Shown piece by piece: positions 19,489 through 39,738 of a stretch of DNA of 46,093 nucleotides. The stretch spans positions 1 to 46,093 of the forward strand of contig JAPJNB010000197.1 of assembly GCA_026461385.1 (NCBI GenBank), in the 5' to 3' direction. The translations under genes and the position numbers were made by a program. Origin of the DNA: Akkermansiaceae bacterium. GTDB lineage: Bacteria; Verrucomicrobiota; Verrucomicrobiia; Verrucomicrobiales; Akkermansiaceae. Every line of letters begins with the position of its first letter. The first letter of the stretch is position 1. The notes under the pieces were generated by a model. The model was given only the letters and a program-made list of their open reading frames with translations, was not told the DNA's origin and searched no databases.

Positions 19489-20304
19489 CTACTCGGCGGC
19501 GTGTCCGATGATCGTCGCAAATGCGTTGTGGTCATGAATGCTCTCATGGTTCACCGCCTTCACCGAAAATGAGGAAACCCGCCGGTCAGCACGCAGAAGC
19601 GCCGCCGCATTCCGAACCACATCTTCAACGAAGACCGGATTGTCATATGCCTGCATCGTCACGAAACGCTCGTCGGTGCGTTTCAACAACGCATAAAGCG
19701 GCGCAGAACCCGATTTCTCGGCGATCTCGATTAGATCCTCGATGAGGATCAACTCCCACCCACCCACGGTTGCCTTAGGCCGGACCTCCAAGGTCACATA
19801 CCCGCGCTGATTGTGCGCCCCATATTCACTGATCTCCTTACTGCATGGACAAAGCGTGGTCACTGGAACGGTCACACACAGAACGAAATCATCGACCTTG
19901 CCATTCGATTTCCCTCTAAATACACAATCGCATCCAACCTTCGCCGCAGCCCCAGAAACCGGTGCTTTCTTCGTTACGAAATAAGTGAAGGCCACCTCGA
20001 TATGCGCTTCTTCTGCATCTAACCGCTTCTTGAGATCATGCAGAATTTCTGGCAGCGTTCGCATCGTCACCTCGCCCTCGTGTTGACTGAGCACCTCAAG
20101 GAACCGACTCATGTGAGTGCCCTTGAAATGATGCGGCAGATGAACTGACATAGAAATTTTTGCAACCGTCGGGAATGGCCGACCTTCCTGATCCAGCACT
20201 TGGATCGGGTAGCGCAGGTCCGAGACCCCCACCTGGTCAATCGCGATCCCACGGGTGTCGGGAGTCGCTTGGATGTCCGGCAATAAAGAATTCTGGTTAG
20301 ACAT
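19489..20304 (-). CDS. folE2: GTP cyclohydrolase FolE2 (type IB)
   Basis: MSNQNSLLPDIQATPDTRGIAIDQVGVSDLRYPI, MSVHLPHHFKGTHMSRFLEVL, VPVTTLCPCSKEISEYGAHNQRGYV. Confidence 0.96.
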   Translation of the reverse strand: MSNQNSLLPDIQATPDTRGIAIDQVGVSDLRYPIQVLDQEGRPFPTVAKISMSVHLPHHFKGTHMSRFLEVLSQHEGEVTMRTLPEILHDLKKRLDAEEAHIEVAFTYFVTKKAPVSGAAAKVGCDCVFRGKSNGKVDDFVLCVTVPVTTLCPCSKEISEYGAHNQRGYVTLEVRPKATVGGWELILIEDLIEIAEKSGSAPLYALLKRTDERFVTMQAYDNPVFVEDVVRNAAALLRADRRVSSFSVKAVNHESIHDHNAFATIIGHAAE

Positions 20305-20307
20305 GAT

Positions 20308-20769
20308 TCAAAGAGAATGTTCGTATTCCGCCCATGAGGATGAAGTCTCCCAAACTCTGACACGGACGAGGCGGACTCCAGGAGCGAGTCGATAGGGAGC
20401 ATCGGCACGAGCCGCATACGCCACCAATGATTTTACCGTATGCTCAAAAATCGTGCGCGCCATCAGTTCGGTCGTCGGATCTTGTTGGTCAAATCCAATC
20501 ACACGATCCCCGTAACGCTCCTTGAAATCGGCGTAAGCGGGATCCGCAGTGTTCATGCACATCGCATGATCAAATGTTTCTAACCAATCACCGACCGCCT
20601 CTTTGATCATCTTGAAATCACAGACCATTTCGTTGCCGTCAAGTTCATCAGCCTCCAACACGAACTCGATCTTCCGCGTGTGCCCGTGTGGAAACTGGCA
20701 CTTGTCGGGATGCTTGCTGAGCATGTGGCCATTCTCAACCTCGAGCGATTTGCAGATTCGGTAGGGCAT
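20308..20769 (-). CDS. queD: 6-carboxy-5,6,7,8-tetrahydropterin synthase
   Basis: SLEVENGHMLSKHPDKCQFPHGHTRKIEFVLEADELDGNEMVCDFKMIKEAVGDWLETFDHAM. Confidence 0.92.
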   Translation of the reverse strand: MPYRICKSLEVENGHMLSKHPDKCQFPHGHTRKIEFVLEADELDGNEMVCDFKMIKEAVGDWLETFDHAMCMNTADPAYADFKERYGDRVIGFDQQDPTTELMARTIFEHTVKSLVAYAARADAPYRLAPGVRLVRVRVWETSSSWAEYEHSL

Positions 20770-20846
20770 GAAGGGTAAAGTAATGTTTCGAACGAGAGGC
20801 GAGACGATAAATGAAAACAAGATGGATTTGAACGCCTATTTGAACT

Positions 20847-21527
20847 TTATCGCAAAACGGGCAGATCCGGAGTTTGTTCGTAATGGGTCGGATCCTGCAA
20901 ACTCGCCAGCGCAAACGCCTCACGCCGCTCAACGCAGGTCCCGCACACCCCACAATGAATCTCCCCGCCTTTATAACACGACCACGTCTCTGAGAAATCC
21001 ACTCCAAGCTCAACCCCACGCTTGGCAATCCCAGCCTTGTCGGTGGCAATGAACGGCCGCAGCAATTGAATCCGCGCATAAGTTCCCTCGATCATGGCGG
21101 TGGCCATCGCCTGCATGAAGGGCTCACGACAATCTGGATAGATCGCATGATCGCCCGAATGCGCAGCAATCACCAACCCCTCCGCATCGATGCTCTCCGC
21201 ATACCCTGCAGCGATCGCCAACATGATGCCATTTCGAAACGGCACGACCGTTTGCTTCATCGACTCCTCCGCATAGTGGCCGTCAGGGATCTCACCGCCG
21301 GACTGCAGGAGATCGGACTTGAACAACCGATTCATAAAATCTAACGAAATCACTTGATGAGTCACTCCCGCACGATCCGCATGCAACTTCGCAAACGGAA
21401 TCTCCCGTGCGTTGTGCTTCGATCCGTAATCAAACGAGAGGCACGCCACCACATCATGCTCGCCGAGCACCTCATGCAAGGCAGCTACCGAATCCATGCC
21501 GCCACTCAGCAACACACAGACTTTCAT
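20847..21527 (-). CDS. queC: 7-cyano-7-deazaguanine synthase
   Basis: MKVCVLLSGGMDSVAALHEVL, SFDYGSKHNAREI, VPFRNGIMLAIAAGYAE, ETWSCYKGGEIHCGVCGTCVERREAF. Confidence 0.97.
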   Translation of the reverse strand: MKVCVLLSGGMDSVAALHEVLGEHDVVACLSFDYGSKHNAREIPFAKLHADRAGVTHQVISLDFMNRLFKSDLLQSGGEIPDGHYAEESMKQTVVPFRNGIMLAIAAGYAESIDAEGLVIAAHSGDHAIYPDCREPFMQAMATAMIEGTYARIQLLRPFIATDKAGIAKRGVELGVDFSETWSCYKGGEIHCGVCGTCVERREAFALASLQDPTHYEQTPDLPVLR

Positions 21528-21955
21528 GGCTGCGCCGAAATCGTGTCGGGATACGTGGCCTCCGTCGTCAATTGAATGCCACCCCGTGGCGCAAACTCAC
21601 CCCGCACCACCAACTCCGCTGGCGCCATCGCAGCCACTAGATCATCCAAAATCCGATTAACGATTTCCTCGTTGAACGCCGGTTGATTGCGGAACGAAGC
21701 GAGGTAGAACTTCAGACTCTTGGTTTCCACACAAACCTGATTCGGCACATAGCGGATCACGATCTTTGCGCTGTCAGGTTGGCCGGTGACTGGACACAAC
21801 GATGAGAATTCAGGGCAATTCAGTGTGATCCAATATCGACGACCTGGGCGTTGGTTTGGAAAAATTTCCAATTTCGCCTCATCGGGGCTCGCGGGAAGGC
21901 GGGTCTCCGCTTTCCCGAGCAGAGAGAGGTTCTTAAGATCTTCGCGATCGGACAT
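21524..21955 (-). CDS. queF: NADPH-dependent 7-cyano-7-deazaguanine reductase
   Basis: NCPEFSSLCPVTGQPDSAKIVIRYVPNQVCVETKSLKFYLASFRN (QueF ESKSLK-type motif); overlaps the queC start. Confidence 0.95.
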   Translation of the reverse strand: MSDREDLKNLSLLGKAETRLPASPDEAKLEIFPNQRPGRRYWITLNCPEFSSLCPVTGQPDSAKIVIRYVPNQVCVETKSLKFYLASFRNQPAFNEEIVNRILDDLVAAMAPAELVVRGEFAPRGGIQLTTEATYPDTISAQP

Positions 21956-22035
21956 GGCCGAATTCTGAAACCCTACGCGCAAAGGTCGATCCCTTTTTCG
22001 CCCCGACCCAACGAAACCTGCATGCTTCGATGGCG

Positions 22036-22362: not shown

Positions 22363-23157
22363 CTAGTTCTTTGCGGTCGCTGCAGGTGCTGGCTTCGGGC
22401 TGTTCGCCTTGAGCGCGGCATCGGTTTGTGAACTAAACCAAGTTCCGAACTGATCCTTCGGCAAAACCTCCATCGACCCAACCATGTTCCCATGGCCTTC
22501 ACCACAAAGCTGCGCGCAAACTACAAAAGTCTCCAAGGTCTTCACCGGGGTGAACCACATCGGGATTTCACGGCCTGGAATCGCGTCCTGCTGGATCCGC
22601 ATCGGAACGATGCAATAGTTATGAATCACATCCTTGGTGCCAATGTTGAGAACCACCGGCTTATTTACAGGCAACTTGAGAATTGGGCTCGTGAAGTCAT
22701 CGAGCGCATTCGGGTCGGTGTAGTCGATGCCAAGCTCATTGGAACCCGAGATCAACGCTGGGTCATGGCGACCAAACTTGTTGTCGGCACCTGGGTAATG
22801 GTAAGTCCATCCGAACTGCCAACCCACCACACGGACACGCAATGGATTCAAGTTCTGAACCGCTTTCCAGCTATCAACCCGCTCGGCCCAGAGTGGAAAT
22901 GCAAACCCAAGAAGCAAAACTGCCTCGATGATGATCACGCCAACTTCCAAGTGGCTCGAAAGATGGCTCCTCACCCCCTCATAGGATGCTTTTGGATGAT
23001 TCTTATGCCAGAAGCGAAAAATACAGTAGAAGAAAAATAAAGTCCACCCCACGAACAGCGCGATCATGAACCAATGAACCACGTCAATCATGTGATCAAC
23101 CTGACCACCGTGTGCTGAGAAATTTTCAGGAATGCCTAGGAATTTTGAGGGACTCAT
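22363..23157 (-). CDS. coxB: Cytochrome c oxidase subunit II (CuA-containing)
   Basis: Two N-terminal TM segments; VIHNYCIVPMRIQQDAIPGRE and VVCAQLCGEGHGNMVGSMEV (CxxxCxxxHxxM CuA motif). Confidence 0.93.
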   Translation of the reverse strand: MSPSKFLGIPENFSAHGGQVDHMIDVVHWFMIALFVGWTLFFFYCIFRFWHKNHPKASYEGVRSHLSSHLEVGVIIIEAVLLLGFAFPLWAERVDSWKAVQNLNPLRVRVVGWQFGWTYHYPGADNKFGRHDPALISGSNELGIDYTDPNALDDFTSPILKLPVNKPVVLNIGTKDVIHNYCIVPMRIQQDAIPGREIPMWFTPVKTLETFVVCAQLCGEGHGNMVGSMEVLPKDQFGTWFSSQTDAALKANSPKPAPAATAKN

Positions 23158-23199: not shown

Positions 23200-23421
23200 T
23201 CAGCGCGAAACGTTCGGATTTACGTAATCGTCAGAAAGTGTGGGGTCAAAGTGGGTCTTCTCCCGTCGGGCAAGGCGAATCATAAAAAATCCAACGCCTC
23301 CAATCATCGCCAAAATCACGATGAGCAAAAAGAAGATCGACCACCCCGCAGCATCGCCTCCACCATCGATCATGGTTACCCGGCAGGTGGAGCAGCTTAG
23401 AAATGTTTGAGTGAAGTTCAT
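23200..23421 (-). CDS. Small single-TM protein in oxidase cluster
   Basis: MNFTQTFLSCSTCRVTMIDGGGDAAGWSIFFLLIVILAMIGGVGFFMIRLARREKTHFDP; co-directional and tightly spaced with the cox genes. Confidence 0.6.
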   Translation of the reverse strand: MNFTQTFLSCSTCRVTMIDGGGDAAGWSIFFLLIVILAMIGGVGFFMIRLARREKTHFDPTLSDDYVNPNVSR

Positions 23422-23456
23422 GAATGTTGGAATCGGTTCAATGGCTCTCTAAATTT

Positions 23457-23657
23457 TCAAATGTGGGCCCGAGTGATTTTCCGATAAAAGCAAACCCCAT
23501 AAATCGGCATCAAAATGGCACCGGTCACTCCCACGAACCCGAGCGCCGTTGAGACAGCGGATGGCTCAGGTGCCAACACGAAAGCCCACAATGCCAAGAA
23601 TACACAGAGAAGCGTCGAAACCGATACAAATACGATGTGAAATCCTTTGAGTGACAT
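23457..23657 (-). CDS. Small two-TM protein in oxidase cluster
   Basis: MSLKGFHIVFVSVSTLLCVFLALWAFVLAPEPSAVSTALGFVGVTGAILMPIYGVCFYRKITRAHI. Confidence 0.65.
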   Translation of the reverse strand: MSLKGFHIVFVSVSTLLCVFLALWAFVLAPEPSAVSTALGFVGVTGAILMPIYGVCFYRKITRAHI

Positions 23658-23679
23658 GACAAGAGTTGGGTTGGAAATT

Positions 23680-24021
23680 TCAGTGGCCCGAGTAGAAGAA
23701 CTTATCGAATATCGGATCGCCAAGCGCAAGGGCCGTTAGACCGGCAAGACTGCAAACCATGCAAAGCCCAGAGGCAAAAAGCCAGTAAACCGCCTTCTTC
23801 TCGTGATTGAGGTGCATGAAGATGAAAGCAACCAGCGACGCTTTGAAGGTCGCAATCGTCAAACCGAGGATACAGTCCATGGCGTCAAACCCGTGGTGGC
23901 CGAAATCCAGCCAAGGCACCGTGGCCACCAAGACGGTGACGATGGTACCTACGAATAAAATGGCTCCAACGAACATGTAAGTTCGGACGGACTTCTTGAT
24001 TGCTTCTGGGGTATCAGCCAT
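23680..24021 (-). CDS. coxD: Cytochrome c oxidase subunit IV family protein
   Basis: 113 aa with three TM-like segments and LTIATFKASLVAFIFMHLNHEKKAVYWLFA, the prokaryotic COX4 signature. Confidence 0.88.
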   Translation of the reverse strand: MADTPEAIKKSVRTYMFVGAILFVGTIVTVLVATVPWLDFGHHGFDAMDCILGLTIATFKASLVAFIFMHLNHEKKAVYWLFASGLCMVCSLAGLTALALGDPIFDKFFYSGH

Positions 24022-24053: not shown

Positions 24054-25667
24054 TTACATCAAATACAAAATCGGGAAAACGAAGATCCAGACAAGGTCAA
24101 CAAAGTGCCAGAACAACCCACCGATTTCGACACGATTGGCAAGCCACTCTGGATTCGAAAGATACATCTTCTTTCCGAAAAACAAGTAGTATGCAAGCAC
24201 CAGCGCACCACCAATCACGTGGAGACCATGCAGACCGGTAATGGTGAAATAAATGGCATAATAGGTATTCCAAGCAGGCGTGAACTTTGAAGCAAATCCG
24301 ACCTGCTCGCGCGGCACCGAGAACCCTGGGAACGTCTCATCGCCCCGAGCTTCATAATTGGGTCCGAAGAATTCTTCCTTCGCCGCGTCTACGCCCGAAA
24401 GCTTCGCACGACCATGATCCTCAGCCATTTTTGCCAAGTCCTTCCATCCGATCCGATAAAGCTCTTTGTGAGTCGGCACATAGCGAGGCTTTCCGTTCTT
24501 GCCGACACCATGCGCCTCAAGCAGCTCGGCACTCAATTTTTTAATCTCACCTTGGTGCCATGCCCACGCATCCCTGACGAAGGCGCTATTTTTCATGGGC
24601 CATGAATTCTCAATCGCGACCTCAGGATCGATCCCCTTCTCCTTGGCCTTCATGACCAAATGTTGGAAGTCGATCGCGTCAATGTGATGAAAGACCATGG
24701 GGCTCGCAAGAAGCTTTCCATCGACCACCGTGTCATCACGAAGCCTGGACTGTCCCTCGGCGGCCTTGATGTCCCGCGGGCGAAAATCAAGCTTTGCAGG
24801 TGGATCTACCGAAAACGAGACCGTCGAGATTTCACCAAGCAATGTTGGCGCCAACGCTGCCATGTCGATGTTGACACCAGAGGCAATTTGCCAGCCCTTT
24901 TTGCCCGGATTCGCAGCCTTTGCGGTCACCCACTCGGCACGAAGCGCTTCGGTACGATTGGCCGCATTGTGGCTCCGAGCCGCAAGATGCGCTGCTTGAA
25001 TGCGATTGAGAAGCTCGACGGAAAGCGGTTCACCTGCCTTGGCGATGACCTCGGCGGGCTGGCCCACTTTGGTAATCGCAGTGACATCCGCAGCCAAGGC
25101 TACCTTCGAATGATGGTGCTCAGCTTGAGCCGAGAGTTCCTCAACCCATGGCTTGTAGAACCGGACCGTGTCAAAAGTCAGCTTCGACGCCTCCACAAAA
25201 ATAAGATTCTCCTCGATCGTGCTTCCTTTGTGATCGAGCACCGGTTTTCCATCCTCCGACTCCACACCGAGGTGACCCTCAACCACCGAATAGTCCTTCA
25301 ACTTCAGGGCTTGGTGATGAAGCTTCACGTTGTATTCGACGCCCTTGAGCACCATGAAAATCATCGCGCAGCCCACGGTAATCCCCATGAACAACTGAAA
25401 CTTGCGCCACTCGCGCAGCTTCAACGACGCCCATGCGAAGACCACCGTGACCGAGGAACCGATGAGTACGAACGTATTGATCAAACCCGGAAGCACAGGC
25501 AGCGTCCGCTCAGGCCATGGATAATCTGCGCCGAGACGTAGGAACACGTATGCCGAGAAGAAACCGCCGAAGAGCATGACTTCAGAGGCAAGGAACAACC
25601 AGATGGCGATCTTCGAATTGAAGAGTCCGGTATCCTTTCGAGGAGTGACGACGTATGGAATTTCCAT
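24054..25667 (-). CDS. coxC: Cytochrome c oxidase subunit III with large central insertion
   Basis: N-term KIAIWLFLASEVMLFGGFFSAYVFLRLG...FMVLKGVEYNVKLHH and C-term YYAIYFTITGLHGLHVIGGALVLAYY...GGLFWHFVDLVWIFVFPILYLM are COX3; about 340 aa of unrelated hydrophilic sequence lie between. Confidence 0.92.
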   Translation of the reverse strand: MEIPYVVTPRKDTGLFNSKIAIWLFLASEVMLFGGFFSAYVFLRLGADYPWPERTLPVLPGLINTFVLIGSSVTVVFAWASLKLREWRKFQLFMGITVGCAMIFMVLKGVEYNVKLHHQALKLKDYSVVEGHLGVESEDGKPVLDHKGSTIEENLIFVEASKLTFDTVRFYKPWVEELSAQAEHHHSKVALAADVTAITKVGQPAEVIAKAGEPLSVELLNRIQAAHLAARSHNAANRTEALRAEWVTAKAANPGKKGWQIASGVNIDMAALAPTLLGEISTVSFSVDPPAKLDFRPRDIKAAEGQSRLRDDTVVDGKLLASPMVFHHIDAIDFQHLVMKAKEKGIDPEVAIENSWPMKNSAFVRDAWAWHQGEIKKLSAELLEAHGVGKNGKPRYVPTHKELYRIGWKDLAKMAEDHGRAKLSGVDAAKEEFFGPNYEARGDETFPGFSVPREQVGFASKFTPAWNTYYAIYFTITGLHGLHVIGGALVLAYYLFFGKKMYLSNPEWLANRVEIGGLFWHFVDLVWIFVFPILYLM

Positions 25668-25732: not shown

Positions 25733-27616
25733 TCAGTGACCGCCCGGTGGCTTCGCAGAGGAGCCGAGGTGCTTTGGCTCTGTCCACTGCGGCAGGAAGT
25801 CGCTATCGCAATCGGGACGGCTGTATTCATAGGGTCCACGGTAAGTGACCGGCTCTTTCAAGAAATTTCCGTGCCCCGGAGGTGTTGGTGTCGCCCACTC
25901 AAGGGTGGTTGCATTCCAGGGGTTGTCACCCTCAGCCTTTTTCCCAAACTTCCATGAGGTGAAGAGATTGATGATGAATGGAATTTGGAAAAGCGCCATC
26001 GTCCAAGCGCCCATGGACATGATGATGTTCATGTCAATGTGCTGCACCACTGTATTGCCGAAGATATTCACGCTATCGGCAGCCTTCGAAAGGTAGGCAT
26101 CTCCACCATTGTACCATCGGCGATGAAATCCCGCCATCCCCTGCACTAGCATTGGGAAGAAAATCAAATTCATGCAAATCAGGCTCGGCCAGAAATGGAG
26201 ATGATTGAGGGTCTTGCCCATGTAACGACCGGTGATCTTGGGATACCAGTGGTGGATCCCCGCAAAGAATCCAAACAAAATCCCCGGTGCCACCACATAG
26301 TGGAAGTGACCGATCACGTAGTAAGTGTCGTGAAGGTGGAGGTCAGCCAAATTGAATGCGAGCGGCAGGCCCGTGAGACCACCAATTCCAAACATCGGAA
26401 TAAACGCGCAGGCCCACATCATCGGAGTGGTGAAACGAATCGAACCACCCCATAGCGAGATCAACATCGCCGTGATGATCACCACCGAAGGCACAGAGAT
26501 CAAAACCGTGGTCGTTTGGAAGAAGGTCGAAACCGCAGCGCCCATGCCGGTCATGTACATGTGGTGAGCCCACACCACGAACGAGAGAAAACCGAGGAGG
26601 AGCACCGAGTAGACCATCGACTTGTAGCCCCAAAGTGGCTTGCGGCTATTCGCAGGAATGATTTCACTCACGCAAGCAAAAGCCGGCAGGAGAAGCACAT
26701 ACACCTCGGGGTGACCAAGAAACCAGAACAAGTGTTGGAACAAGAGCGGCGAACCACCACCCGAGAGATCCGCCAGCCCTTCACTCTTGGTGAACAGCCC
26801 GGAAGGCATGAAAAACGACGAGTGCACCACGCGGTCCATCAATTGCATGATGCCAGCGGCCTCAAGTGGCGGGAATGCGAGGAGCAGGAGGAATCCCGTC
26901 ACCAGCATCGCCCAGACAAAAAATGGCATCCGCATCCAAGTCATGCCACGCACCCGAAGGTTGATGATAGTTGTGATGAAATTGACCGAACCGAGAAGCG
27001 ATGAGGTGATCAGGCAAACAAGACCGATCAACCATTGGGTTTGGCCCGCCAACCACTGGTTCACCACTTGCCCATCGGCAAATCCAGCGAGTGGAGAATA
27101 GTTGGTCCAACCCGATTTGGCAGCACCAGACTCGAAGAAAAACGACGCACACATGATCAGACCACCCAAGAGATAAATCCAGTAGCTTGCCATGTTCAGA
27201 CGAGGAAATGCCATGTCGGGCGCACCGATCTGCAGTGGCGTCACGTAGTTACCAAACGCTCCGAAACCAAGTGGCACGATGCCAAGGAAAACCATAATCG
27301 TCCCGTGCATGGCACCGAACATGTTGTACGTTTGACCGGTCACCTTGCCGTCTTGCAGCCAGCGAGCCTTCCAACCATCGGTGAAGACCCAGCCCATCCA
27401 CTCCGGAAGCGGCTGATGCGGGTAAGCAATGCTCCAGCGCATCACCATCATTAAGTAAAACCCGAACGCTAGGAAACACAGTGCGGTAAGACCGTATTGC
27501 AAACCAATCATCTTATGGTCCGTGGAGAAAATCCATTTCTGGATGAATCCTGGATCGTGATGATGTTCGTCGTGATGGGCATCGTGCCCGGCAGGTGCTG
27601 TGGAGTGAGCGCTCAT
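25733..27616 (-). CDS. coxA: Cytochrome c oxidase subunit I (A-type)
   Basis: MFGAMHGTIMVF, FGNYVTPLQIGAPDMAFPRLN, WFLGHPEVYVLLLPAF, VVWAHHMYMTGM, HDTYYVIGHFHYVVAPG. Confidence 0.97.
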   Translation of the reverse strand: MSAHSTAPAGHDAHHDEHHHDPGFIQKWIFSTDHKMIGLQYGLTALCFLAFGFYLMMVMRWSIAYPHQPLPEWMGWVFTDGWKARWLQDGKVTGQTYNMFGAMHGTIMVFLGIVPLGFGAFGNYVTPLQIGAPDMAFPRLNMASYWIYLLGGLIMCASFFFESGAAKSGWTNYSPLAGFADGQVVNQWLAGQTQWLIGLVCLITSSLLGSVNFITTIINLRVRGMTWMRMPFFVWAMLVTGFLLLLAFPPLEAAGIMQLMDRVVHSSFFMPSGLFTKSEGLADLSGGGSPLLFQHLFWFLGHPEVYVLLLPAFACVSEIIPANSRKPLWGYKSMVYSVLLLGFLSFVVWAHHMYMTGMGAAVSTFFQTTTVLISVPSVVIITAMLISLWGGSIRFTTPMMWACAFIPMFGIGGLTGLPLAFNLADLHLHDTYYVIGHFHYVVAPGILFGFFAGIHHWYPKITGRYMGKTLNHLHFWPSLICMNLIFFPMLVQGMAGFHRRWYNGGDAYLSKAADSVNIFGNTVVQHIDMNIIMSMGAWTMALFQIPFIINLFTSWKFGKKAEGDNPWNATTLEWATPTPPGHGNFLKEPVTYRGPYEYSRPDCDSDFLPQWTEPKHLGSSAKPPGGH

Positions 27617-27688: not shown

Positions 27689-28453
27689 TTAAGGAGCCTT
27701 TGCTGGAGCAAGGGTGATTGGATCGAGCAAAGTCTTTGGATCCATCATTGCGCCTGGCAGAGCCTTGACGTGGGCAGCGGTGAGCTCGACTGAAGTGACC
27801 GAATTGCCTGCATTCTTGCGAGCAGCGGAGATCTCGATGGCCGCCTTTGCCATCTCAGTGGTGATCACATCGCCCTTGGTGTTGCCAAAATTGTTGCGAA
27901 CGTAGGTCATGATTCCCGCGAGATCCTCGGGTGCCATCCCAATCCCCTGCGGCGGCATCACTCCGTACGTTTTTTCATCGCTCACCGGACCTTGCAAGCC
28001 GTTGAGAATGATCATCGAGAAGCGCTCGGTTTCCCCATTGGCCCAAGCCGAACCCACGAGCGATGGGAAGGTCGATCCATTGCCCTTCGCATCCGAACCG
28101 TGACAGCCATTGCACTTGGCGGAGTAAATCTTTGCTCCTTTCGCCATGTAAGCGGCGAGCGCTTCTTTCGGCACCGGCCCGCTGTCTGCCGCTCCCGGTG
28201 CTGGGGCACGGACGTAACCTTCACGGAAGGTCGCCTTGTATGAAAACAAATCGCCGCCACCCGCCAGAACACCACCCGCGATCAACAGAACGACACCACA
28301 AACGATCAAGGCCCAGATCGAGATCGGGCCGAGCCCATTGTCGACCACACGATTTTCACGGGCACAAGCGGCGGCCTCACGAACCGCCCGCTCATGAGCC
28401 TCACTCACATTGATCGAATCCTCTAGATCTGGATTTTGGTTAGGCAGAGACAT
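27689..28453 (-). CDS. Membrane-anchored mono-heme cytochrome c
   Basis: TM segment GPISIWALIVCGVVLLIAGGVLAGG, then AKIYSAKCNGCHGSDAKGNGSTFPSLVGSAW with a single CxxCH. Confidence 0.9.
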   Translation of the reverse strand: MSLPNQNPDLEDSINVSEAHERAVREAAACARENRVVDNGLGPISIWALIVCGVVLLIAGGVLAGGGDLFSYKATFREGYVRAPAPGAADSGPVPKEALAAYMAKGAKIYSAKCNGCHGSDAKGNGSTFPSLVGSAWANGETERFSMIILNGLQGPVSDEKTYGVMPPQGIGMAPEDLAGIMTYVRNNFGNTKGDVITTEMAKAAIEISAARKNAGNSVTSVELTAAHVKALPGAMMDPKTLLDPITLAPAKAP

Positions 28454-29228: not shown

Positions 29229-30734
29229 TCAATGTGCGGCAGCGTGACCTAGGCCAGCGTTGTCGATATCGCCCTCCTCACCGTGAGGACCGGGACCATG
29301 GTGAGCATCTGAAACCAACAGCGTCGGATGGAGACTGCGCCGTCCAAGACGCAGCCACATCAAAGCAAGGTGGATGAAGAAGAAAACATTGGAGAACAGG
29401 ATGAAGCACCATGCGATGGTGGTTGCAACGGCGTATGGGTAGGCCCGTGTGGCGGCCCCTTGCCAAGGCTGCTGCCATTCCTCTTGGCCGATCCCCTGCT
29501 GGAGCCCTCCGAAGAGAGCAACTGCGGCGACGGTGATGATTCCGTACACCGAAAACAAAAAGTGAATCTTGATCAGGCGACGGGAAAGCCACTCCCTGCC
29601 GGTGACTCGGGGCACAATGAAGTAAACCGCACCAAACATGACAAAACTGAAAAACCCGTAGATCGCAAGGATTTCAAACCCATAGCCAGAAAGCGAGAAC
29701 TGGGTGAGTGGCAGTGTCGACCCAGGAAGATTCAGCCAGACGGCTGCTAAGCCAAGAAGGACGAGGCCAGCAATGCCGGTGATCATGAAGCGAAGTGATG
29801 GACTGCTCGCGACGACTTCTGGAGAAGACAAGGTCGTGCGGAGAATGTTGATTGCCGCACAAACTGCTGGGACAAAAAACAGCACGGTGGCTGCAGCCCC
29901 CACATAGGGAAGGAAAAACGGGATGGGTACGCCCATTAACTTCTGCATTCCAGCCCAAGGGGCGATGATCGCAAGCGACCAAAATCCAAGTTTGGCAAGC
30001 GAGTAACTGAAGACCGGCCGCCCCGTCACCTTAGGAGCAAGATAATACGCGGCCGCCAAAGCGACTGGAGTAAAGAATAAGAAAATGAGTGCAGACCGAT
30101 ACCAAGCATTGATGCCTGCGGCCATGAGCGGATGACCAGGAATGCAATGAAGCAATGTGTTTGCAGTGACAAACACCCATGGGAACCAAACCATTGCGGC
30201 GAGAAGATACCACTGGGAAATGTAAACATGCCCCTCGGGCCGCACGCGAAACTGAATGAACGATCCGATGACGATGGCAGTGTACGCCACCAAAAACACG
30301 GGCCACACGAACGAAGGAAACTCCATCCAAGGCATCCCAGTGCCGTTGCCCGAGAGAATTCCGACAAGGCCAAGCGAGACACCAAGGTTCCAAATGTGCC
30401 CCGCAGTCAGGATGATACCAGCCGAGGTGCACTCTTTACGCGAAAGGCGCGCCATCAACCAAATGATCACCGCAAACGCCGCTTGAAAGCCCCAACCATA
30501 AATCAACGCGTTGATGTGGGAAGGAAATACCCGACCATAGTCAAGCCAAGCGCAGCCAGACATGAAGCTAGGGCTGTGCACCTTGGCCGATGCAATGATT
30601 CCCAAGACGATGGACACCGCGAGCCATGCGGCCCCGCTGGTCATAAAAAACATCACTGGGTGACGAAGCGAACGATCGATCCCCGCACGCAGCAAGGCGT
30701 CCTGATCACTGGAATTTTGGATGGCAGATGACAT
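29229..30734 (-). CDS. CcoN-like heme-copper oxidase subunit I homologue lacking canonical metal ligands
   Basis: DYGRVFPSHINALIYGWGFQAAFAVIIWLMARL, WYRSALIFLFFTPVALAAAYYLAPKVTGRPVFSYSLAKLGFWSLAIIAPWAGMQK, GAVYFIVPRVTGREW: a gapless resemblance to CcoN helices. Confidence 0.9.
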   Translation of the reverse strand: MSSAIQNSSDQDALLRAGIDRSLRHPVMFFMTSGAAWLAVSIVLGIIASAKVHSPSFMSGCAWLDYGRVFPSHINALIYGWGFQAAFAVIIWLMARLSRKECTSAGIILTAGHIWNLGVSLGLVGILSGNGTGMPWMEFPSFVWPVFLVAYTAIVIGSFIQFRVRPEGHVYISQWYLLAAMVWFPWVFVTANTLLHCIPGHPLMAAGINAWYRSALIFLFFTPVALAAAYYLAPKVTGRPVFSYSLAKLGFWSLAIIAPWAGMQKLMGVPIPFFLPYVGAAATVLFFVPAVCAAINILRTTLSSPEVVASSPSLRFMITGIAGLVLLGLAAVWLNLPGSTLPLTQFSLSGYGFEILAIYGFFSFVMFGAVYFIVPRVTGREWLSRRLIKIHFLFSVYGIITVAAVALFGGLQQGIGQEEWQQPWQGAATRAYPYAVATTIAWCFILFSNVFFFIHLALMWLRLGRRSLHPTLLVSDAHHGPGPHGEEGDIDNAGLGHAAAH

Positions 30735-30762
30735 CGGCTTGAAAGATGAAAGGAGAATCAAA

Positions 30763-31521
30763 TTAAGGATTTACGAGTTCCTCGGTGGGAAGTTGTGGCT
30801 TTCCGACTTCGCTGCGAAGCGCAGCCACTTGGGCAGCCGTCACTGCGGAGGCCTTATTTCCGAAGCTGTTGCGAACGTAAGTCAGAACCCCGGCGATTTG
30901 CTCGTCCGTCTGGTAGCTGAGTGCCGCCATCCCAACCACAAAGTTGTAGTCCTTGCCGGCGACCTTAAGCGGTCCCTTGAGACCACGCAGCTGGATGCGA
31001 ATGAGATTGGACACAGGTCCCTTCACCCACTCAGAACCCGCGAGCGGCGGCGCGATCGGCCCACCCTCACCGTTTTGACCGTGGCACGCACTGCAAACCA
31101 AAAAGGAAGCCTTGCCTGAAGCCATCACCGCAGGATCGATCGGCGCATCAGCACTCGCAGTGGCGGCATCGACCGCCTTGGTATCCACCGCTGGAGCGGC
31201 TGCAAGTTTCTTAGCCGTATCCGACCCAGGAACGACTTGGGCTGGGACGCTCACGGCAACTGGCTTTGAATCCGCGAGATGCTTGGCCACTGTCACAGCA
31301 GCCGCTTCGATCGACTCGGGAGAAAGATTCGCAGCCTGAGCAGCATCGATCTTGGCCTTGGTCGCGTAGCGCGGCTTAGCAGCAGCATCCTCCAGCGAGG
31401 CGGGCTCAGGACGGACAAAAAGCCAGATCGCCGCAAGCAATGCAGCAAAGATGAGGAAGGTGCCAATGCCCCACCAAAATGTGGTGAAACGGATCAGCGG
31501 ATTATCGCGGGATGGGTCCAT
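30763..31521 (-). CDS. Membrane-anchored mono-heme cytochrome c
   Basis: N-terminal TM FWWGIGTFLIFAALLAAIWLF, Ala-rich linker, FLVCSACHGQNGEGGPIAPPLAGSEWV. Confidence 0.9.
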   Translation of the reverse strand: MDPSRDNPLIRFTTFWWGIGTFLIFAALLAAIWLFVRPEPASLEDAAAKPRYATKAKIDAAQAANLSPESIEAAAVTVAKHLADSKPVAVSVPAQVVPGSDTAKKLAAAPAVDTKAVDAATASADAPIDPAVMASGKASFLVCSACHGQNGEGGPIAPPLAGSEWVKGPVSNLIRIQLRGLKGPLKVAGKDYNFVVGMAALSYQTDEQIAGVLTYVRNSFGNKASAVTAAQVAALRSEVGKPQLPTEELVNP

Positions 31522-31538: not shown

Positions 31539-32849
31539 TCAGTTAGAAACGTTCGCGGATTCCAGGATGCGCGGATCGCGGTTCGGATAGAGTGAATGCT
31601 GACCAAGCGCACGCAGCAGGAAGAAAATGAACGCCGCACCGATCGTCACAAAGGCGAGGATGTCGCCCCAAAACGCACCTGGGATCGACACTTGGATATC
31701 GCCGAACACCTCAGGCTTGATGTTACCCAACGAAACGCCGCGCTCAGGAATGGTGATCAAGTAGTGGTCGAGCGCGTGCATGCACAACGTGTAAACGGCG
31801 ACGATCGAAAGCAATTTCGGATTCTTCTTCAGCCAAGCTTGCAAAAGAACCACGAAGGGCACCACGAAATGGCCGAACACGAGGAAATACATCGCCACGT
31901 TCCAATTGCCGGTGTTGCGAATGGCAAAGTAGGAAGTTTCCTCCGTAATGTTTGCATACCAGATGAGGAAAAACTGCGAGAATGCGATATAGGCCCAGAA
32001 CGTCGTGAACGCGAACATTAGCTTACCCATGATGTGGAAATGCTCCGGTCCGGTGACATGCTTCAGGTGGCCCTGACTCTTCAACCAAGTGCAGACGAGC
32101 ACGATGACCGCCATCGAGTTGAGTGCGGTGCCTGCGAATAGATACACACCCCACATGGTCGAGAACCAGCGGTAGTCTAGGCCCATCAAGAAGTCGAATC
32201 CAGTGAACGTAATCGTCAACGCGAAAATGATGAGCGTGTAGGTCGAATGAAAACGTGCCTTCAACAACCGGCTCGTTCCCGGATTCGGATCGGTGTCTTG
32301 GGCGGTCGAAAGTTTGCGGAGCCCATAGATTACGGCGCTGAGACCAAGCGCATAAAATGCCACCCGGCCATACCAAAACGGCTGATTCATGAACCAATAC
32401 TTATTGTAGAGAAGATGGTCGTGGTGGTGAAGATACTCCTTTACGGCACCGGGTGCCTTGTTGTGGGTGTTCATCCACTCATAGAGGTAAACTTGCACTT
32501 TTGGAAATAGCAGCGGCGTGCCGAACAAGAACACCCAAGGGAACGTCGACCCCAAGTTTTCAAACGTGCGACGCACCGAAGTTCCCCACCCCGAGTTCGA
32601 CACATTGTGGAGCAAGGTCCAGAACACCCCACCGATCGAGAGAGTGAGGAAATAATAAAAAGCGAACAGCCAAGAATAAGCGAAGGGCCCGCGAAGTTTC
32701 TCCGGCGCGAAGAACAAGAGATAAATGCTGGCTGCGGTGCCGAGAACCGCAAGGGTCAAAGCGACGCTCTTCAACTTCGAGGTCTTCGAAGCATCCAGAT
32801 GGTCGCCGTGGATCGCGATGTCGGCGGAGGTGACGTGGTGATGGGCCAT
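31539..32849 (-). CDS. actF: Alternative complex III subunit ActF (integral membrane quinol oxidoreductase subunit)
   Basis: Multi-TM protein with GGVFWTLLHNVSNSGWGTSVRRTFENLG, FTGFDFLMGLDYRWFSTMWGVYLFAG; position in the actA-F order. Confidence 0.9.
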   Translation of the reverse strand: MAHHHVTSADIAIHGDHLDASKTSKLKSVALTLAVLGTAASIYLLFFAPEKLRGPFAYSWLFAFYYFLTLSIGGVFWTLLHNVSNSGWGTSVRRTFENLGSTFPWVFLFGTPLLFPKVQVYLYEWMNTHNKAPGAVKEYLHHHDHLLYNKYWFMNQPFWYGRVAFYALGLSAVIYGLRKLSTAQDTDPNPGTSRLLKARFHSTYTLIIFALTITFTGFDFLMGLDYRWFSTMWGVYLFAGTALNSMAVIVLVCTWLKSQGHLKHVTGPEHFHIMGKLMFAFTTFWAYIAFSQFFLIWYANITEETSYFAIRNTGNWNVAMYFLVFGHFVVPFVVLLQAWLKKNPKLLSIVAVYTLCMHALDHYLITIPERGVSLGNIKPEVFGDIQVSIPGAFWGDILAFVTIGAAFIFFLLRALGQHSLYPNRDPRILESANVSN

Positions 32850-32870: not shown

Positions 32871-33521
32871 TTATTTAGCCTTGGCTTGAGCCTCTTTGGC
32901 GGTTTGCAAGGTGCGGACGTAGGCGATGATCGCCCAGCGGTCGTTGACCGGAATGTTGTAGCCGTATGCACCCATCATGCCCTTGCCGAGCGTGATGGTT
33001 TCAAAAATCCGACCGTCGGGATAGGAAGCAGGCTTGAAGGCATCCAAGTGGAAGTTCGCAATTCCGGGAACCCCATACTGCCCCGTCACCCCCTGACCGT
33101 CGCCCGATTTGCCGTGGCACACTGCGCAATAGATCCCAAAGCGTTCCTTGCCACGTTGGATCAGGGCACTCGCGCTTTCCTCGTTCAGCTTAAGCTCTTC
33201 TGGCATGCCAGAGCCGAAATAATCTCCCACGTGACCGGTGTAATAGTAGCCGGTTTGGCCGCCAAATTCGTACTCAGGAATTCCGCCAATCGACTTGGCA
33301 CCCGAATCATTGAATCCACGCGGTTGGGTTTCAGCGACGGGTCGGCGTGAGCCATGACCATCTGCGAAAAAGGGATCGGGCTTCTGCGCACGCAACTTGT
33401 CCTGCTCGTCCATGTCCGGGAAGATCCGAATCGGAGGCTTGGAAAACTTCTGGCCGCGGAACCCAAAAAGGCCAACGACTAGCAACGCAATCAGCGCGTA
33501 AGTGAGAAAAAAGTAACGCAT
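32871..33521 (-). CDS. actE: Alternative complex III mono-heme cytochrome c subunit ActE
   Basis: RGKERFGIYCAVCHGKSGDGQGVTGQYG, GKGMMGAYGYNIPVNDRWAIIAYVRTLQ. Confidence 0.92.
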   Translation of the reverse strand: MRYFFLTYALIALLVVGLFGFRGQKFSKPPIRIFPDMDEQDKLRAQKPDPFFADGHGSRRPVAETQPRGFNDSGAKSIGGIPEYEFGGQTGYYYTGHVGDYFGSGMPEELKLNEESASALIQRGKERFGIYCAVCHGKSGDGQGVTGQYGVPGIANFHLDAFKPASYPDGRIFETITLGKGMMGAYGYNIPVNDRWAIIAYVRTLQTAKEAQAKAK

Positions 33522-33564: not shown

Positions 33565-34119
33565 TCAGTCCTCCTCCTCGACCAGCTCGATGTTTGACCC
33601 ACCAACCTCGGCGAGCAAGTCATGCGTCCCTGTCGGACTGAACATTGGATCACGAGCCTCGATGGCGATGAAAAAACCGTCATCTGTTGCGCGGCTGAAC
33701 TGGTCGCTTGCAAACAACGGGTGGTTAAGGCGTGGCAACTGGATCAAGGCGAGAAGGCCAAACAAGACGGTGAAGCCTGAGAACAAAATCGTCAGCTCGA
33801 ACATGATTGGGAAAAAGGCAGGAACGGTGAAGATGTTCGCGGGCTTTGCCTGAACAATCGTCGGGTAAATGACCACCTGTGTGCTGTAGGCAAGCGTGAA
33901 GGCGGTCGCGGTGCCGGTCATCCCCCCGAAGAAAACGAACCAAGGCAGGATCGAGCGCTTCATGCCCATCGCCCCGTCCAAGCCGTGGATCGGATAGGGA
34001 GAATAGCAATCCCACTTCTTGAAGCCGGCGTCGCGGATTTTCTCCGCACCCTTGTAGAGAGCGGATGCGCTCTTGAACTCGGCTAGGTAGCCATAAACGC
34101 GTTTGCGGGTGGTGCTCAC
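33565..34119 (-). CDS. actD: Alternative complex III subunit ActD (DUF3341)
   Basis: YGYLAEFKSASALYKGAEKIRDAGFKKWDCYSPYPIHGLDGAMGMKRS, the DUF3341 signature. Confidence 0.94.
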   Translation of the reverse strand: MSTTRKRVYGYLAEFKSASALYKGAEKIRDAGFKKWDCYSPYPIHGLDGAMGMKRSILPWFVFFGGMTGTATAFTLAYSTQVVIYPTIVQAKPANIFTVPAFFPIMFELTILFSGFTVLFGLLALIQLPRLNHPLFASDQFSRATDDGFFIAIEARDPMFSPTGTHDLLAEVGGSNIELVEEED

Positions 34120-34149: not shown

Positions 34150-35625
34150 TTATTTAGAGGAAACGAGCTCTTTTTGATAAGCAGCCTCGGTGACCACGCC
34201 ATGGTCAGGATGATCTTGGATATCGTCGAAGTGCGGATCGGACTCAAGCAAGGTCCACTTCACTTCTGCAATGTTGATGCAAGGCAAGAAGCGCAAAAAC
34301 ATAAGGAAAAGCGCCAGGAACAAGCCGATGGTACCCACGAAGGTCATCAACTCAACCCCACTGGGGGAATAAGTTTTCCAATCCCCCGGCAGCCACATGC
34401 GGGCCAAAGTGGTGCAAATGATCACAAAGCGCTCGAACCACATCCCGACGTTCACACACATCGCGACGATCATGATCACCCAAAGGTTTTCGCGGCACGC
34501 CTTGAACCAAAACACCTGTGGCGAAAGCACGTTGCAGCTCATCATCGCGGCGTAGGCCCACCAGTATGGACCAGCGATCCGGAACTTAAACGCATCCATT
34601 TCATAGATAGCACCCGAGTAGAACGCGACGAACAACTCCATCAAGTAGGCATAACCCACGATAGTTCCGGTCAGTAGAATGATCTTCGCCATGTTGTCGA
34701 TGTGCTTCATGGTGATCACATCCTGAAGTCCGTAGATGAAGCGGGCAGGAACCATGATCGTGAGCACCATCGCAAATCCACCGAAAATGGCACCGGCGAC
34801 GAAGTAGGGTGGGAAGATGGTCGTGTGCCAGCCCGGCACCACCGAGGTTGCAAAGTCGAACGAAACCACTGAGTGAACCGAGAGCACGAGCGGAGTGGAA
34901 AGAGCGGCGAGCAACAGATAGGCCATTTCGTAGTGACTCCACTGGCGATTGCCCCCACGCCAGCCGAGCGAGAAGATCCCATAGAGCACCTTGCGGATGC
35001 CTGGCTTGCAGCGGTCGCGGATGGTGGCAAGGTCAGGAACCATGCCGAGGTACCAGAAAATCAACGAGATGGTGAAATAAGTGGAAACCGCGAACACGTC
35101 CCAGAGGAGTGGTGACTTGAAGTTTTGCCAGATGGCATTCGCATTCGGAACGGGAGCGAGGAACCAAGCGAACCAAACCCGACCGACGTGGAAGGCAGGG
35201 AAAATTCCAGCGCAAATCACCGCAAAAATCGTCATGGCCTCCGCCGCACGATTGATCGAGGTCCGCCAATTTTGGCGAGTCAGGAACAACACCGCAGAAA
35301 TCAGTGTACCTGCGTGTCCGATCCCGATCCAGAACACGAAGTTCGTGATATCAAATCCCCAGAAAACTCGGTTTGACATCCCCCACACCCCCACACCCGT
35401 TGAGACCAGATAAGTGAGTCCACCGCCCACCCCGATCATCGCGATCAATGCGGAAGGAATGAACAGCAACCACCAGAGGAAGGGTTGACGGTTTTCAAGA
35501 ACGCCACAGATGCGCTCGGTGATCCAGTGATACGAACGACCGCTGAGGATGAGCTTTTCGCGCTCAAGCACCGGTAACTTGACCCCAGTGTGGGTCTCAG
35601 GTGCGGTTTGGGTGGTGGAAGCCAT
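34150..35625 (-). CDS. actC: Alternative complex III subunit ActC (NrfD/PsrC-like)
   Basis: About ten TM segments; [56 protein letters not shown]. Confidence 0.95.
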
Positions 35626-35660: not shown

Positions 35661-38600
35661 TCAGACCATGTGAACGGTCGCCTTGCCGACGAACTTCGCG
35701 TCGGGCATTTTCGGATTCGGATTCTTAACACGCGCCAGATAGCTGGTGCGTGGGCGGGTGCCGATGTAGTTGAGTAGGTCGTAATTCCGCTCAATTTTCT
35801 TGCTGCGAACCAAGACGGATTTTTCTTCGTCGAGCAGATTGCCGAAGGTGATGGCTCCAGCAGGGCAAGCGTCTTGGCATGCGGTCTTCACCGAATCCAC
35901 CGGGATCCGGAGGGTGTGGAGATCGACTTTCATCTCGGTCGATGGCTTGCCAGCCACGAGCGCCTCTTGCTTTTGGCCGCGCTTCTGACGGATTACCGCA
36001 TCCTTGAGACGCTGCACGCAATAGGTACACTTTTCCATCACACCGCGCATGCGGACCGTGACGTTCGGGTTCTTCTGAAGGTGAGGTGCTTCGCCGGTTT
36101 GCTTCTCACCAAATGGTCCCTTGTAGAGGTTGTGAGAAATGAGCGGGTTGCGCTTGTTGTAATCGAAATAGTTGAATCGACGCGCCTTGTATGGGCAGTT
36201 GTTCGCACAATAGCGGGTTCCGATGCAACGGTTGTAGGCCATCGCATTGAGGCCGTCCTCCGTATGGATCGTCGCATTGACTGGGCAAACGGTTTCACAG
36301 GGGGCGGACTCGCACTGCACGCAAGCCACTGGTTGCGGGACCATCTCCGGATTGTCTTCGTCGAAGGTGTTGTCCTTCTGTGCCGCAAAATAACGATCCA
36401 TCCGGATCCAGTGCATTTCACGACCCATCCCAACCTGCTTTTTGCCGACGATTGGAATGTTGTTTTCCGATTGGCAAGCGACGAGGCAGGAATTGCAACC
36501 CATGCAGGAAGAAAGGTCGATCGACATTCCCCACTGATGCAGCGGGTCATTGATGAGCGGCTGGTCCTTGCGGTTGTTGGGCTTGTAGAGCGAAAGATTT
36601 GGCGGAGCGTGAGCGTCGTTGCCCTGCTTGGGCACATTGGCCAACTGAGCGGCGAACGATCCCTTTTCCTCGTCCACCATCGTGGAAACCTCACGAGCGA
36701 GTGCGCGACCATACATCGCGTGGTGCTCTTGCGTCAGCGAGACCGAGTAGCGTTTGCCCGTGGGCTTCGCGGTAGCACCCGTGGCAAAATACGAAGTGGC
36801 GGTGGTGCGCAACGGATAGGCATCAAACCCGCGGTTGACGCCGACAAGGCCAACATGGCACTCGTTTTTCGGTCCACGCTTCAACTCATCGTGCTCGTCG
36901 AATCCTTGACCGTAGCCGAGCGGGATCACGAGAGTATTTTCTGCTTGGCCGAAGGAAACCAACACCGGAATCTCAAGGGATTTCCCGTTCACCGTGACCA
37001 GAATCATCGGCGAGGTGCGGTTCTGCGCCTCATCGTCGGGCGAGCGAGAACCAAAAGGGGTTTCAAGCGCGATGATCTGATCGTAAACCCCAAGCTCCTT
37101 GGCGGTCTTCGGTGCGACGAGAGCAACGTTGTCCCATGTCAATTTGGAAACCGGATCCGGTGCCTCTTGCAACCAACCGTTGTCGATCCAGCGACCGTCG
37201 AAAATAGACGAATCCGTCGCAAAAATAACCTCGAGCGAAGTTTTGGTTGGGGCCGTGGCCACCAGCGGTGCAGAGGTATCCTCCCGAACGGCTGGGGTCA
37301 CGGATGCGTATGAAGCGCCGGCAAAGAACCCATCGCGGAGCAATTGCTTCCAAGCGGTTTCACCCTCGCCGCCAAATCCAGTGAACGTCTTCCGCACGGC
37401 AGTGTATGCAGGTGACGCAGCACCTTTTGCGCCCTCGCCGCTGAGCAGCTTGCCGTCGAGCGAAAGCAAGGCCAAGAGAAGCTCCAACTCCGACACGCAA
37501 TCGGGATAGAGCGGAAGGATCATCGGCTGCACCATCGTGTAGGTGCCACGCGCGCTTCGGGCATCACCCCATGACTCCAAGTAATGCGCGGCTGGGACGT
37601 GCCAGGTGGCCGCATGAGCCGTTGCATCAGTCCGCATTCCCAAATGAATACTGGTCTTCAGCTTGGCAAAGGATTCCGCAAATTTCAAATCTGCGGGTGC
37701 GTCGTGGAGCGGGTTCGAAGGAGTCATCACGACCAGCGTTTCAACCGCACCGGCATCGATGTCTGCCTTCAGGCTGGCAATGGAGCCGAGGCCTTTGGTC
37801 TCGGTTTGGAGTGCAACGAGTGGCTTGCCTTCGCCGATGTTGCCGAGCGCCACGTTGATCGCGTGAGCGAGCAAATGCACCGAGAGCGACTGACGCGAGC
37901 CCGCAAGCACCAATGACTTACCCGCATGCTCCTTGAGATCCTCGACAAGACCTGCAACCCAAGCGACTTGCTTCGCATCGGAGAGTTCCGGAGAAACGAT
38001 CGCCACCCCGGCCTTAACGCCAAGCCCGCGGGCAACCTGCGCCGCCACGGCATTCACTTGGCTCGGCGCAACCCGCAAACGGTGATCGGCCATGCCACCG
38101 GTAAGGGTGAACGCCGCTTCCACCGCATAGAGGCGGTTCATCTTCTTCGCGTCTGGCTTTTCCGAGTAAAATTTGCCTTCAGGCTTGCGGCGATCGAAGA
38201 ACGAGGTGACCGGCCCTTGGGAATCGGTCCCTGCGAAATCACAGTCCAACGAAAGAATCCGGTCTGCCTTCGCATAGTTGGCGACCAGTTTCACCCCGTC
38301 GCCCAGCGCCGTCGCAGCCGCATCACCCGTGAGAGCCTCGTATTGATAAAACTTCGCAGCAGAAAACTTTACCGCCAATTCTTTGGTGAGCCGTACCCGG
38401 GTCGGGCTGTCATCCGCACCGAACAAGAAGCCGATTTTTGCAGCCGGATCGGCAGCCAGCGAAGCGATGACCGCTTCAAAATCGCCGCGTTTCGCGACCT
38501 GAGCCTTCTTGAGGATCTTGCGCGAGCGCGACGGCGAGTAAAGATCCAAGACCGAAGCTTGGGCGAATGCATCCGTACCCTCGGCATCTGGATGCAGCTT

Positions 38601-38993
38601 ATTTGGCGCCAGCTTGGTTGGGCGACCCTCGAAGGTGGTCACCACCAGTGGCGTCGCCCCATGGGCCCGCGGCATGGATGACGCGTAGTAGGTTGCATTT
38701 CCGGGGATCACCCACTCCGGCGCCTTGGTGTAAGGGACAATATACCCCTCTGGGCGGCGACAGGCAGCCATGCCAAAACCCGCCAACGCCGGCGAGGCCC
38801 CCATCAATTTCAAAAAAGAGCGCCGGGAGTTCTCAGACTCCTCTCCATTCGCCAACTCCGCAGCACCCTGCGGGAACTCACGATCCAGCCACTGACGGAA
38901 TTCTGCCGTGTCCTCAAGTTGACCCGCACTGCGCCAAGCGACGGTGGTTTCGCCGGCGGGAACTTCGGGGTGGTGCCAAATACGCTTGCTCAT
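35661..38993 (-). CDS. actB: Alternative complex III Fe-S/molybdopterin-like subunit ActB
   Basis: [24 protein letters not shown] internal Tat-like motif; C-terminal [83 protein letters not shown] cluster motifs. Confidence 0.95.
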   Translation of the reverse strand: [1110 protein letters not shown]

Positions 38994-39039: not shown

Positions 39040-39738
39040 TCAATGGTGACAGGTGGCGCAAGTGACCTTGGGCTTCACCATGAACTGCTCTTTCAGCTTC
39101 AGGCCGAGATCCTGGGTGGTCTTAACTGATGCATCCTTGGTGTATTTCGACACATCGCTGTCGCTGTAGGCAAAGTTGTAAACCTCCTCTAGCGGGCGAA
39201 GATTTTTCTCCGGTGCACGGTGACACTCAAGACACCAGCCCATCGAGTGCGGCTCTGCTTGGTAAACCACTTCCATCTTGTTCACGTTGCCGTGGCAGCT
39301 CTGGCAGGAAATCCCCCGGTTCACGTGCGCCGAGTGGTTGAAGTAAACGTAGTCAGGAGCCTTGTGGACCCGGACCCATTCGATCGGCTTTCCATCGTAA
39401 CCCGGATAATTCACATCCATCGACCGGTGAAGAGGTGCCAGCTTCGGGCTGTCACGCTGAACGTGCTGGTGGCAATTCCAGCAAGTGCTGCCCGTCGGCA
39501 CATTCGAGTGCCCCGCCACATCCACAAACGAGTGGCAATACCGACAATCCAAACCGAGCTGATCGACATGAATCTTGTGAGAAAATGGAATCGGCTGCGA
39601 CGGTTGATAGCCCACCACCAGCGTCTTGGGAGTCGCGTAATACGCAAAGGCGAGCGCCACACCCGCACCTGCGGTCCCAGCGCAGAATGCGATCTTGAAT
39701 GGTAGGAAGTTGGACCAGCGTGGAAAGATATTTGCCAT
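39040..39738 (-). CDS. actA: Alternative complex III pentaheme cytochrome c subunit ActA
   Basis: Five CxxCH motifs: CRYCH, CWNCH, CQSCH, CLECH, CATCH; N-terminal membrane anchor. Confidence 0.95.
   Translation of the reverse strand: MANIFPRWSNFLPFKIAFCAGTAGAGVALAFAYYATPKTLVVGYQPSQPIPFSHKIHVDQLGLDCRYCHSFVDVAGHSNVPTGSTCWNCHQHVQRDSPKLAPLHRSMDVNYPGYDGKPIEWVRVHKAPDYVYFNHSAHVNRGISCQSCHGNVNKMEVVYQAEPHSMGWCLECHRAPEKNLRPLEEVYNFAYSDSDVSKYTKDASVKTTQDLGLKLKEQFMVKPKVTCATCHH

Follow-up and report, generated by a model that had tools for sequence, protein, structure and literature searches.

The ACIII gene cluster in the window (the whole stretch of 46,093 nucleotides that was analysed) encodes a CcoN-like protein, here called N, which keeps the fold of an oxidase subunit I and lacks nearly all of the residues that bind its metals. 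We consider it probable that N is a pseudo-oxidase retained as a membrane scaffold for the electron exit module of ACIII. ACIII-linked relatives of N with every ligand in place do exist, and the family therefore looks like a case of repeated loss from a working oxidase rather than of one ancient recruitment. The cluster runs in the order ActABCDEF-cytochrome c-N-O-cytochrome c and is followed by CoxI, III, IV and II of an aa3-type oxidase, with all genes closely spaced on the minus strand:

39040..39738, minus strand: ActA, pentaheme cytochrome c (five CxxCH motifs in relatives)
35661..38993, minus strand: ActB, molybdoenzyme-like plus FeS subunit (synteny)
34150..35625, minus strand: ActC, quinol-site membrane subunit (order-wide search; used for the partner tree)
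33565..34119, minus strand: ActD (synteny)
32871..33521, minus strand: ActE, monoheme cytochrome c of ACIII (CxxCH count)
31539..32849, minus strand: ActF, membrane subunit of ACIII (gene order and sequence; conserved neighbour of N in relatives)
30763..31521, minus strand: extra membrane-anchored monoheme cytochrome c in the gap between ActF and N (Cytochrom_C, 8.8e-9)
29229..30734, minus strand: N, ligand-less CcoN-like subunit and putative pseudo-oxidase, 501 aa
28483..29190, minus strand: O, CcoO/FixO-like membrane-anchored monoheme cytochrome c (Pfam FixO, 4.7e-9; CxxCH kept)
27689..28453, minus strand: membrane-anchored monoheme cytochrome c with a CcoP-like domain (Cytochrome_CBB3, 1.6e-10; ccoP, 2.4e-11)
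25733..27616, minus strand: CoxI of an aa3-type oxidase (Pfam COX1, 4.6e-130)
24054..25667, minus strand: CoxIII with a long insertion (Pfam COX3, 1.1e-17)
23680..24021, minus strand: CoxIV-like protein (Pfam COX4_pro, 2.9e-9)
22363..23157, minus strand: CoxII with a CuA motif (Pfam COX2, 8.9e-12)

The extra cytochrome c between ActF and N was not detected in all relatives. A search of this genome (94% complete) found two COX1-family genes, N and the aa3 CoxI, and no gene for cytochrome bd subunit I (cydA). CoxIII is 537 aa long and matches Pfam in two stretches, the better one at residues 460-536, with the insertion preceding the C-terminal COX3 part. Between CoxIV and CoxII (window 23200-23729) are two small open reading frames with hydrophobic stretches, 73 aa and at most 90 aa long, and the genes that adjoin the Cox genes at 19489-21982 are likely folE2, queD, queC and queF, as named from the sequence by eye.

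The start codon of N is probably the ATG at 30734, because M1 is invariant in 28 aligned relatives; the start listed at 30761 is an upstream TTG. N matches Pfam COX1 (PF00115) above the cut-off (8.3e-39) and NCBIfam ccoN (TIGR00780) weakly, at 105.7 bits where the cut-off is 583.15, and an intact ACIII-linked relative also stays under that cut-off (224.5 bits). The solved structures closest to N are CcoN chains. An AlphaFold model built with the 28 relatives as input (pLDDT 83.5, pTM 0.87) matched the CcoN of cbb3 oxidase, 3mk7, in Foldseek with a TM score of 0.82 by query and 0.88 by target (E 6e-19), which bears out the view of the earlier note that the fold is intact. This CcoN shares the 12-helix subunit I fold with N and is its best match in both sequence and fold. 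As in cbb3 oxidases, genes for CcoO-like and CcoP-like cytochromes follow, the CcoO-like one with a heme c motif. N is thus a subunit I of the heme-copper oxidase superfamily, and its nearest kin is CcoN.

Unlike the CcoN of cbb3 oxidase, N does not have the ligand set for heme b, heme b3 and CuB and has no counterpart of Tyr251. Alignment to P. stutzeri CcoN, in which the reference residues H60, H207, Y251, H257, H258, H345 and H347 were checked, placed the following residues at the ligand sites:

H60 equivalent: H73, the sole ligand histidine kept in N
H207 equivalent: S214 (30095..30093)
Y251 equivalent: A258 (29963..29961)
H257 equivalent: Q264 (29945..29943)
H258 equivalent: K265 (29942..29940)
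H345 equivalent: F353 (29678..29676)
H347 equivalent: I355 (29672..29670)

The earlier note had described N as CcoN-like with its ligands replaced and only the H60 equivalent left, and the alignment agrees with it residue by residue, coordinates included. Five of the six metal-ligand histidines and the cross-linked tyrosine are absent, and N has neither the full six histidines nor the tyrosine of a functional heme-copper O2 reductase; the same five absences set it apart from NorB-type nitric oxide reductases, which also require six, together with a non-heme Fe site. The note's judgement that O2 reduction by N looks impossible is supported by these absences, and from the residues present such activity appears not credible. 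N probably possesses neither a heme b3/CuB centre nor a bis-His low-spin heme site.

No substitute histidine was found at the metal sites. Only His73, His391 and His455 of the window protein are well conserved across the order; H391 is conserved in intact CcoN-like proteins too, and H455 was ruled out on topology, since it lies at the end of TM12 and H73 at the start of TM2, at opposite ends of the membrane. We considered whether H73 could still hold a single heme, either five-coordinate or completed by an unusual second ligand, with N acting as an intramembrane electron relay or a redox sensor. In 93% of Verrucomicrobiales N proteins this histidine is conserved, and the N of family f10, discussed below, suggests that a heme-only stage is real. 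However, the position of the second low-spin ligand is Ile, Leu, Val or Met in nearly the whole order, five sampled N proteins have Phe at the H60 position, most ligand-less families elsewhere are without H60, and no new conserved histidine appears on the same side of the membrane. We therefore regard a one-heme N as unlikely.

N was present in 232 of 288 Verrucomicrobiales genomes, with named relatives in Akkermansiaceae, Luteolibacter, Haloferula and Verrucomicrobiaceae records. It was missing mainly from genus group g2, where the ActC relative is at best a weaker one; outside g2, ActC was found in about 228 genomes of the order. The ligand pattern recurs in the Verrucomicrobiales relatives that were checked, and it is therefore the product of neither chance nor misassembly. 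The dN/dS of N was about 0.03-0.05, and 0.028-0.029 against its two closest relatives, similar to the values for ActB (0.04-0.05) and CoxI (0.036), indicating that N is under strong purifying selection. An assembly artefact or a decaying pseudogene, to which we give practically no credence, is ruled out by the same state in hundreds of genomes, by the open frames and by a dN/dS of about 0.03. The earlier note had set two things against its own reading, other histidines at the heme or CuB positions and a mis-assembled region, and neither was found. Intact members share 139 conserved positions, and many structural Gly, Pro and Trp residues are kept in ligand-less N; both ligand-less groups have lost the ligands, Tyr251, S240 and R57, along with several residues close to the active site. 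The O-like proteins each carry one CxxCH motif (91/91 in Verrucomicrobiales and 40/40 at other ligand-less loci), and nearly all ActE and ActA proteins keep theirs. Because the partner cytochromes keep their heme motifs, the loss of cofactors is confined to N.

In nearly every ACIII locus that was fetched, N directly follows ActF, with or without the extra cytochrome c gene. N is thus part of an ACIII-associated module by its conserved linkage to ActA-F, and the tight ACIII operon of the earlier note was found in the window and in relatives. The note's further proposal, that N was recruited as a structural or electron-transfer adaptor between ACIII, its cytochromes and the aa3 oxidase, is too narrow in its tie to aa3, since many ligand-less N-O-c modules lie in ACIII clusters without aa3 genes in the fetched flanks; these clusters also rule out a strict tie of N to an adjacent aa3 oxidase. 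In some f4 genomes (loci L094, L097 and L100; genomes G008, G013 and G080), the best ActC match lies at another place in the genome and ActE-ActF-N-O-c-aa3 stand together, a split that may point to an affiliation of N with ActE and ActF.

N could instead be an assembly or regulatory factor, for instance in the maturation of aa3 or of c cytochromes, and take no stoichiometric part in the electron path. The precedent is a "deranged" COX1-like protein of Acetobacter, which, according to the part of PMC10715153 available, lacks all metal ligands, as N does, is encoded beside CtaB and is presumed to have a structural role. That protein differs from N in its setting, as it belongs to a CtaB cluster and the passage in question mentions neither ACIII nor a CcoO-like or cytochrome c partner. 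N is conserved together with O-like, cytochrome c and ACIII genes, including in clusters without aa3, and its fold is strongly constrained, and so an assembly factor appears distinctly unlikely.

A search of the phylum with the family profile, together with the fetched loci, found ActABCDEF-N-O-c across the class Verrucomicrobiae, with N in one of two states, fully intact or ligand-less. Intact N, with all seven sites (HHYHHHH), occurs in families f7, f9, f14, f16, f17, f18, f21, f22, f24 and f25, and a fully intact ACIII-linked N-O-c module is plausibly a working ACIII-linked cbb3-like oxidase. The replacements at the ligand sites of the other state are specific to groups: AYGVQQQ and LNATYHW in f7, QQGRHQQ and ANTSRRW in f9, and SESSHFV and ADAAHQT in f8. 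Some ligand-less proteins have a lone histidine at a single site, and in most ligand-less families outside Verrucomicrobiales the H60 equivalent is lost too. The N of f10 (L124, L125) keeps the low-spin pair H60/H347 and has lost the b3/CuB ligands, and its residues suggest an intermediate, possibly a heme-only stage. Some f9 genomes (L147, L148, L149) have a second, ligand-intact oxidase type of 550-634 aa with the motifs QGYYMHQGVG and GTHHF, which adjoins a two-heme O-like gene. Intact relatives also occur outside ACIII clusters, in stand-alone N-O-cytochrome c clusters of proteobacteria: Aquariibacter, one Comamonadaceae genome and one Salinisphaerales genome (L061-L063). Their N proteins are 32-34% identical to that of the window and have all ligands intact (H60 is not covered in L063), and ACIII genes were not detected in the fetched flanks. 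All three have Gln at the position of Glu323 of CcoN, and the Aquariibacter cluster (L061:9956-13285) is followed by a SCO-like gene, named by eye.

The diversity of the replacements also bears on whether N has been re-used as a channel, a proton or ion conductor, or a quinol binder within ACIII. Such a role would suit a large conserved multi-helix protein, and the polar residues K265, Y351, Y397 and H455 are newly conserved in Verrucomicrobiales. However, the polar residues of the CcoN core, S240, Y251 and Y317, are mostly lost, and because the replacements differ by lineage there is no shared new site. We consider this re-use very improbable.

How often the ligands were lost was estimated from two trees. 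A tree of N built with the ligand columns removed requires three changes of state. It speaks against one ligand-less clade only at the margin of significance (p 0.044), and long branches come together in it. The second tree was built from ActC, a partner gene without obvious reason to speed up when the centre of N is lost. It requires eight state changes, five to six of them forced by strongly supported branches, though exchange of cassettes between ACIII clusters could inflate this count. The ActC tree rejects a single ligand-less clade with a lnL difference of 634 (AU p 1.8e-82), which answers in the negative the question of the earlier note whether ligand-less CcoN forms a clade. A single origin of ligand loss is thus excluded on the ActC tree and marginally on the N tree. 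Since the regain of seven exact residues is implausible, the changes are losses or cassette exchanges. At least two to three losses are a safe minimum, and up to about eight are likely.

We compared the other oxidases of genomes that are at least 90% complete and in which the state of N was determined. All 55 ligand-less genomes encode another COX1-family (heme-copper) oxidase, and 3 of the 31 intact genomes (G288, G418, G667) have no other heme-copper oxidase. The tally, made by hand, fits loss tolerated only beside a second oxidase; the three genomes belong to one genus and hence provide a single evolutionary contrast, not independent support.

Two known devices link ACIII to an A-type oxidase. 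The route proposed for Rhodothermus marinus takes electrons from ActE to CoxII, where a cytochrome c domain receives them; that for Flavobacterium johnsoniae uses an extra ActA domain instead (PMC5928083). As in the window, the ACIII cluster of these caa3/aa3 systems is followed by the A-type oxidase, and direct electron transfer has been proposed; a CcoN-like protein is not described in their supercomplexes (PMC5928083). Neither device is visible here. In Pfam the CoxII of the window matches the COX2 domain only, with no match to a cytochrome c domain, and the c hemes of N-O-c are encoded beside ActE/ActF, which leads us to propose the scaffold. The N-O-cytochrome c module would be a former ACIII-linked cbb3-like oxidase whose catalytic centre became dispensable in lineages with another oxidase. 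What may have kept N indispensable is its hold on the CcoO-like and cytochrome c subunits, which it would anchor next to ActE/ActF. From quinol, electrons would then pass through ActB/ActA/ActE to the hemes of the O-like protein and cytochrome c and on to the CuA of a separate aa3 oxidase, and N-O-c could represent a third bridge between ACIII and oxidase, in addition to the cytochrome domain of subunit IIc in Rhodothermus and the one added to ActA in Flavobacterium. A scaffold role does not fully explain the conservation of H73 or the clusters without a nearby aa3.

ACIII with an adjacent C-type oxidase is already known from verrucomicrobial methanotrophs and Opitutaceae (Refojo 2010, cited in PMC8498564; PMC6688271), and a cbb3-type oxidase beside ACIII has been counted in the methanotrophs (PMC8498564, PMC6688271, PMC10205796). 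The clusters have the same ActABCDEF-N-O-c neighbourhood as the window. Where the earlier reports treat it as a cbb3 oxidase, we find the subunit ligand-less, including in genomes with particulate methane monooxygenase (pMMO) genes. The f8 genomes carry these genes and were placed in the methanotroph group by them. Ligand-less ACIII-linked N occurs in four pMMO-bearing genomes, at L142, L143, L153 and L198 (G323, G520, G349 and G334). In G323 the ACIII-linked N is the only protein that scores mainly as CcoN; the others score as aa3 type or as a more distant oxidase type, which we take to be ba3, and one 476-aa protein has no NCBIfam match. G520 also encodes a 534-aa COX1-family protein (L228:393-1994) with a weak ccoN score of 35 bits.

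A ligand-less COX1-like protein is likewise known, from Acetobacter. The accessible literature yielded no account of an ACIII-linked CcoN that has lost its ligands; an earlier mention may exist elsewhere, for example in Muntyan 2015, which PMC5492636 cites for an "unknown group". As far as we found reported, ligand-less CcoN inside ACIII clusters, its intact sister lineages and the repeated loss are new.

We see about an even chance that in Verrucomicrobiae an ACIII-linked cbb3-like oxidase has become a cofactor-free scaffold on several independent occasions, that ACIII-N-O-c is a distinct, extended quinol:cytochrome c complex in which the electron exit is carried by a dead oxidase, and that the "cbb3" of the methanotrophs is an example of this, unable to reduce oxygen. 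Near-total loss of the metal sites in a core subunit of a respiratory oxidase is unusual; if they were lost repeatedly from a gene that is nonetheless retained, this would be a clean case of pseudo-enzyme evolution in bioenergetics. With intact, heme-site-only and ligand-less proteins in one natural series, what subunit I does structurally can be told apart from its part in catalysis. For the biology of Verrucomicrobiota and their methanotrophs, calls of a "cbb3-type oxidase" beside ACIII, which have been read as evidence of high-affinity respiration, would be wrong for the ligand-less members.
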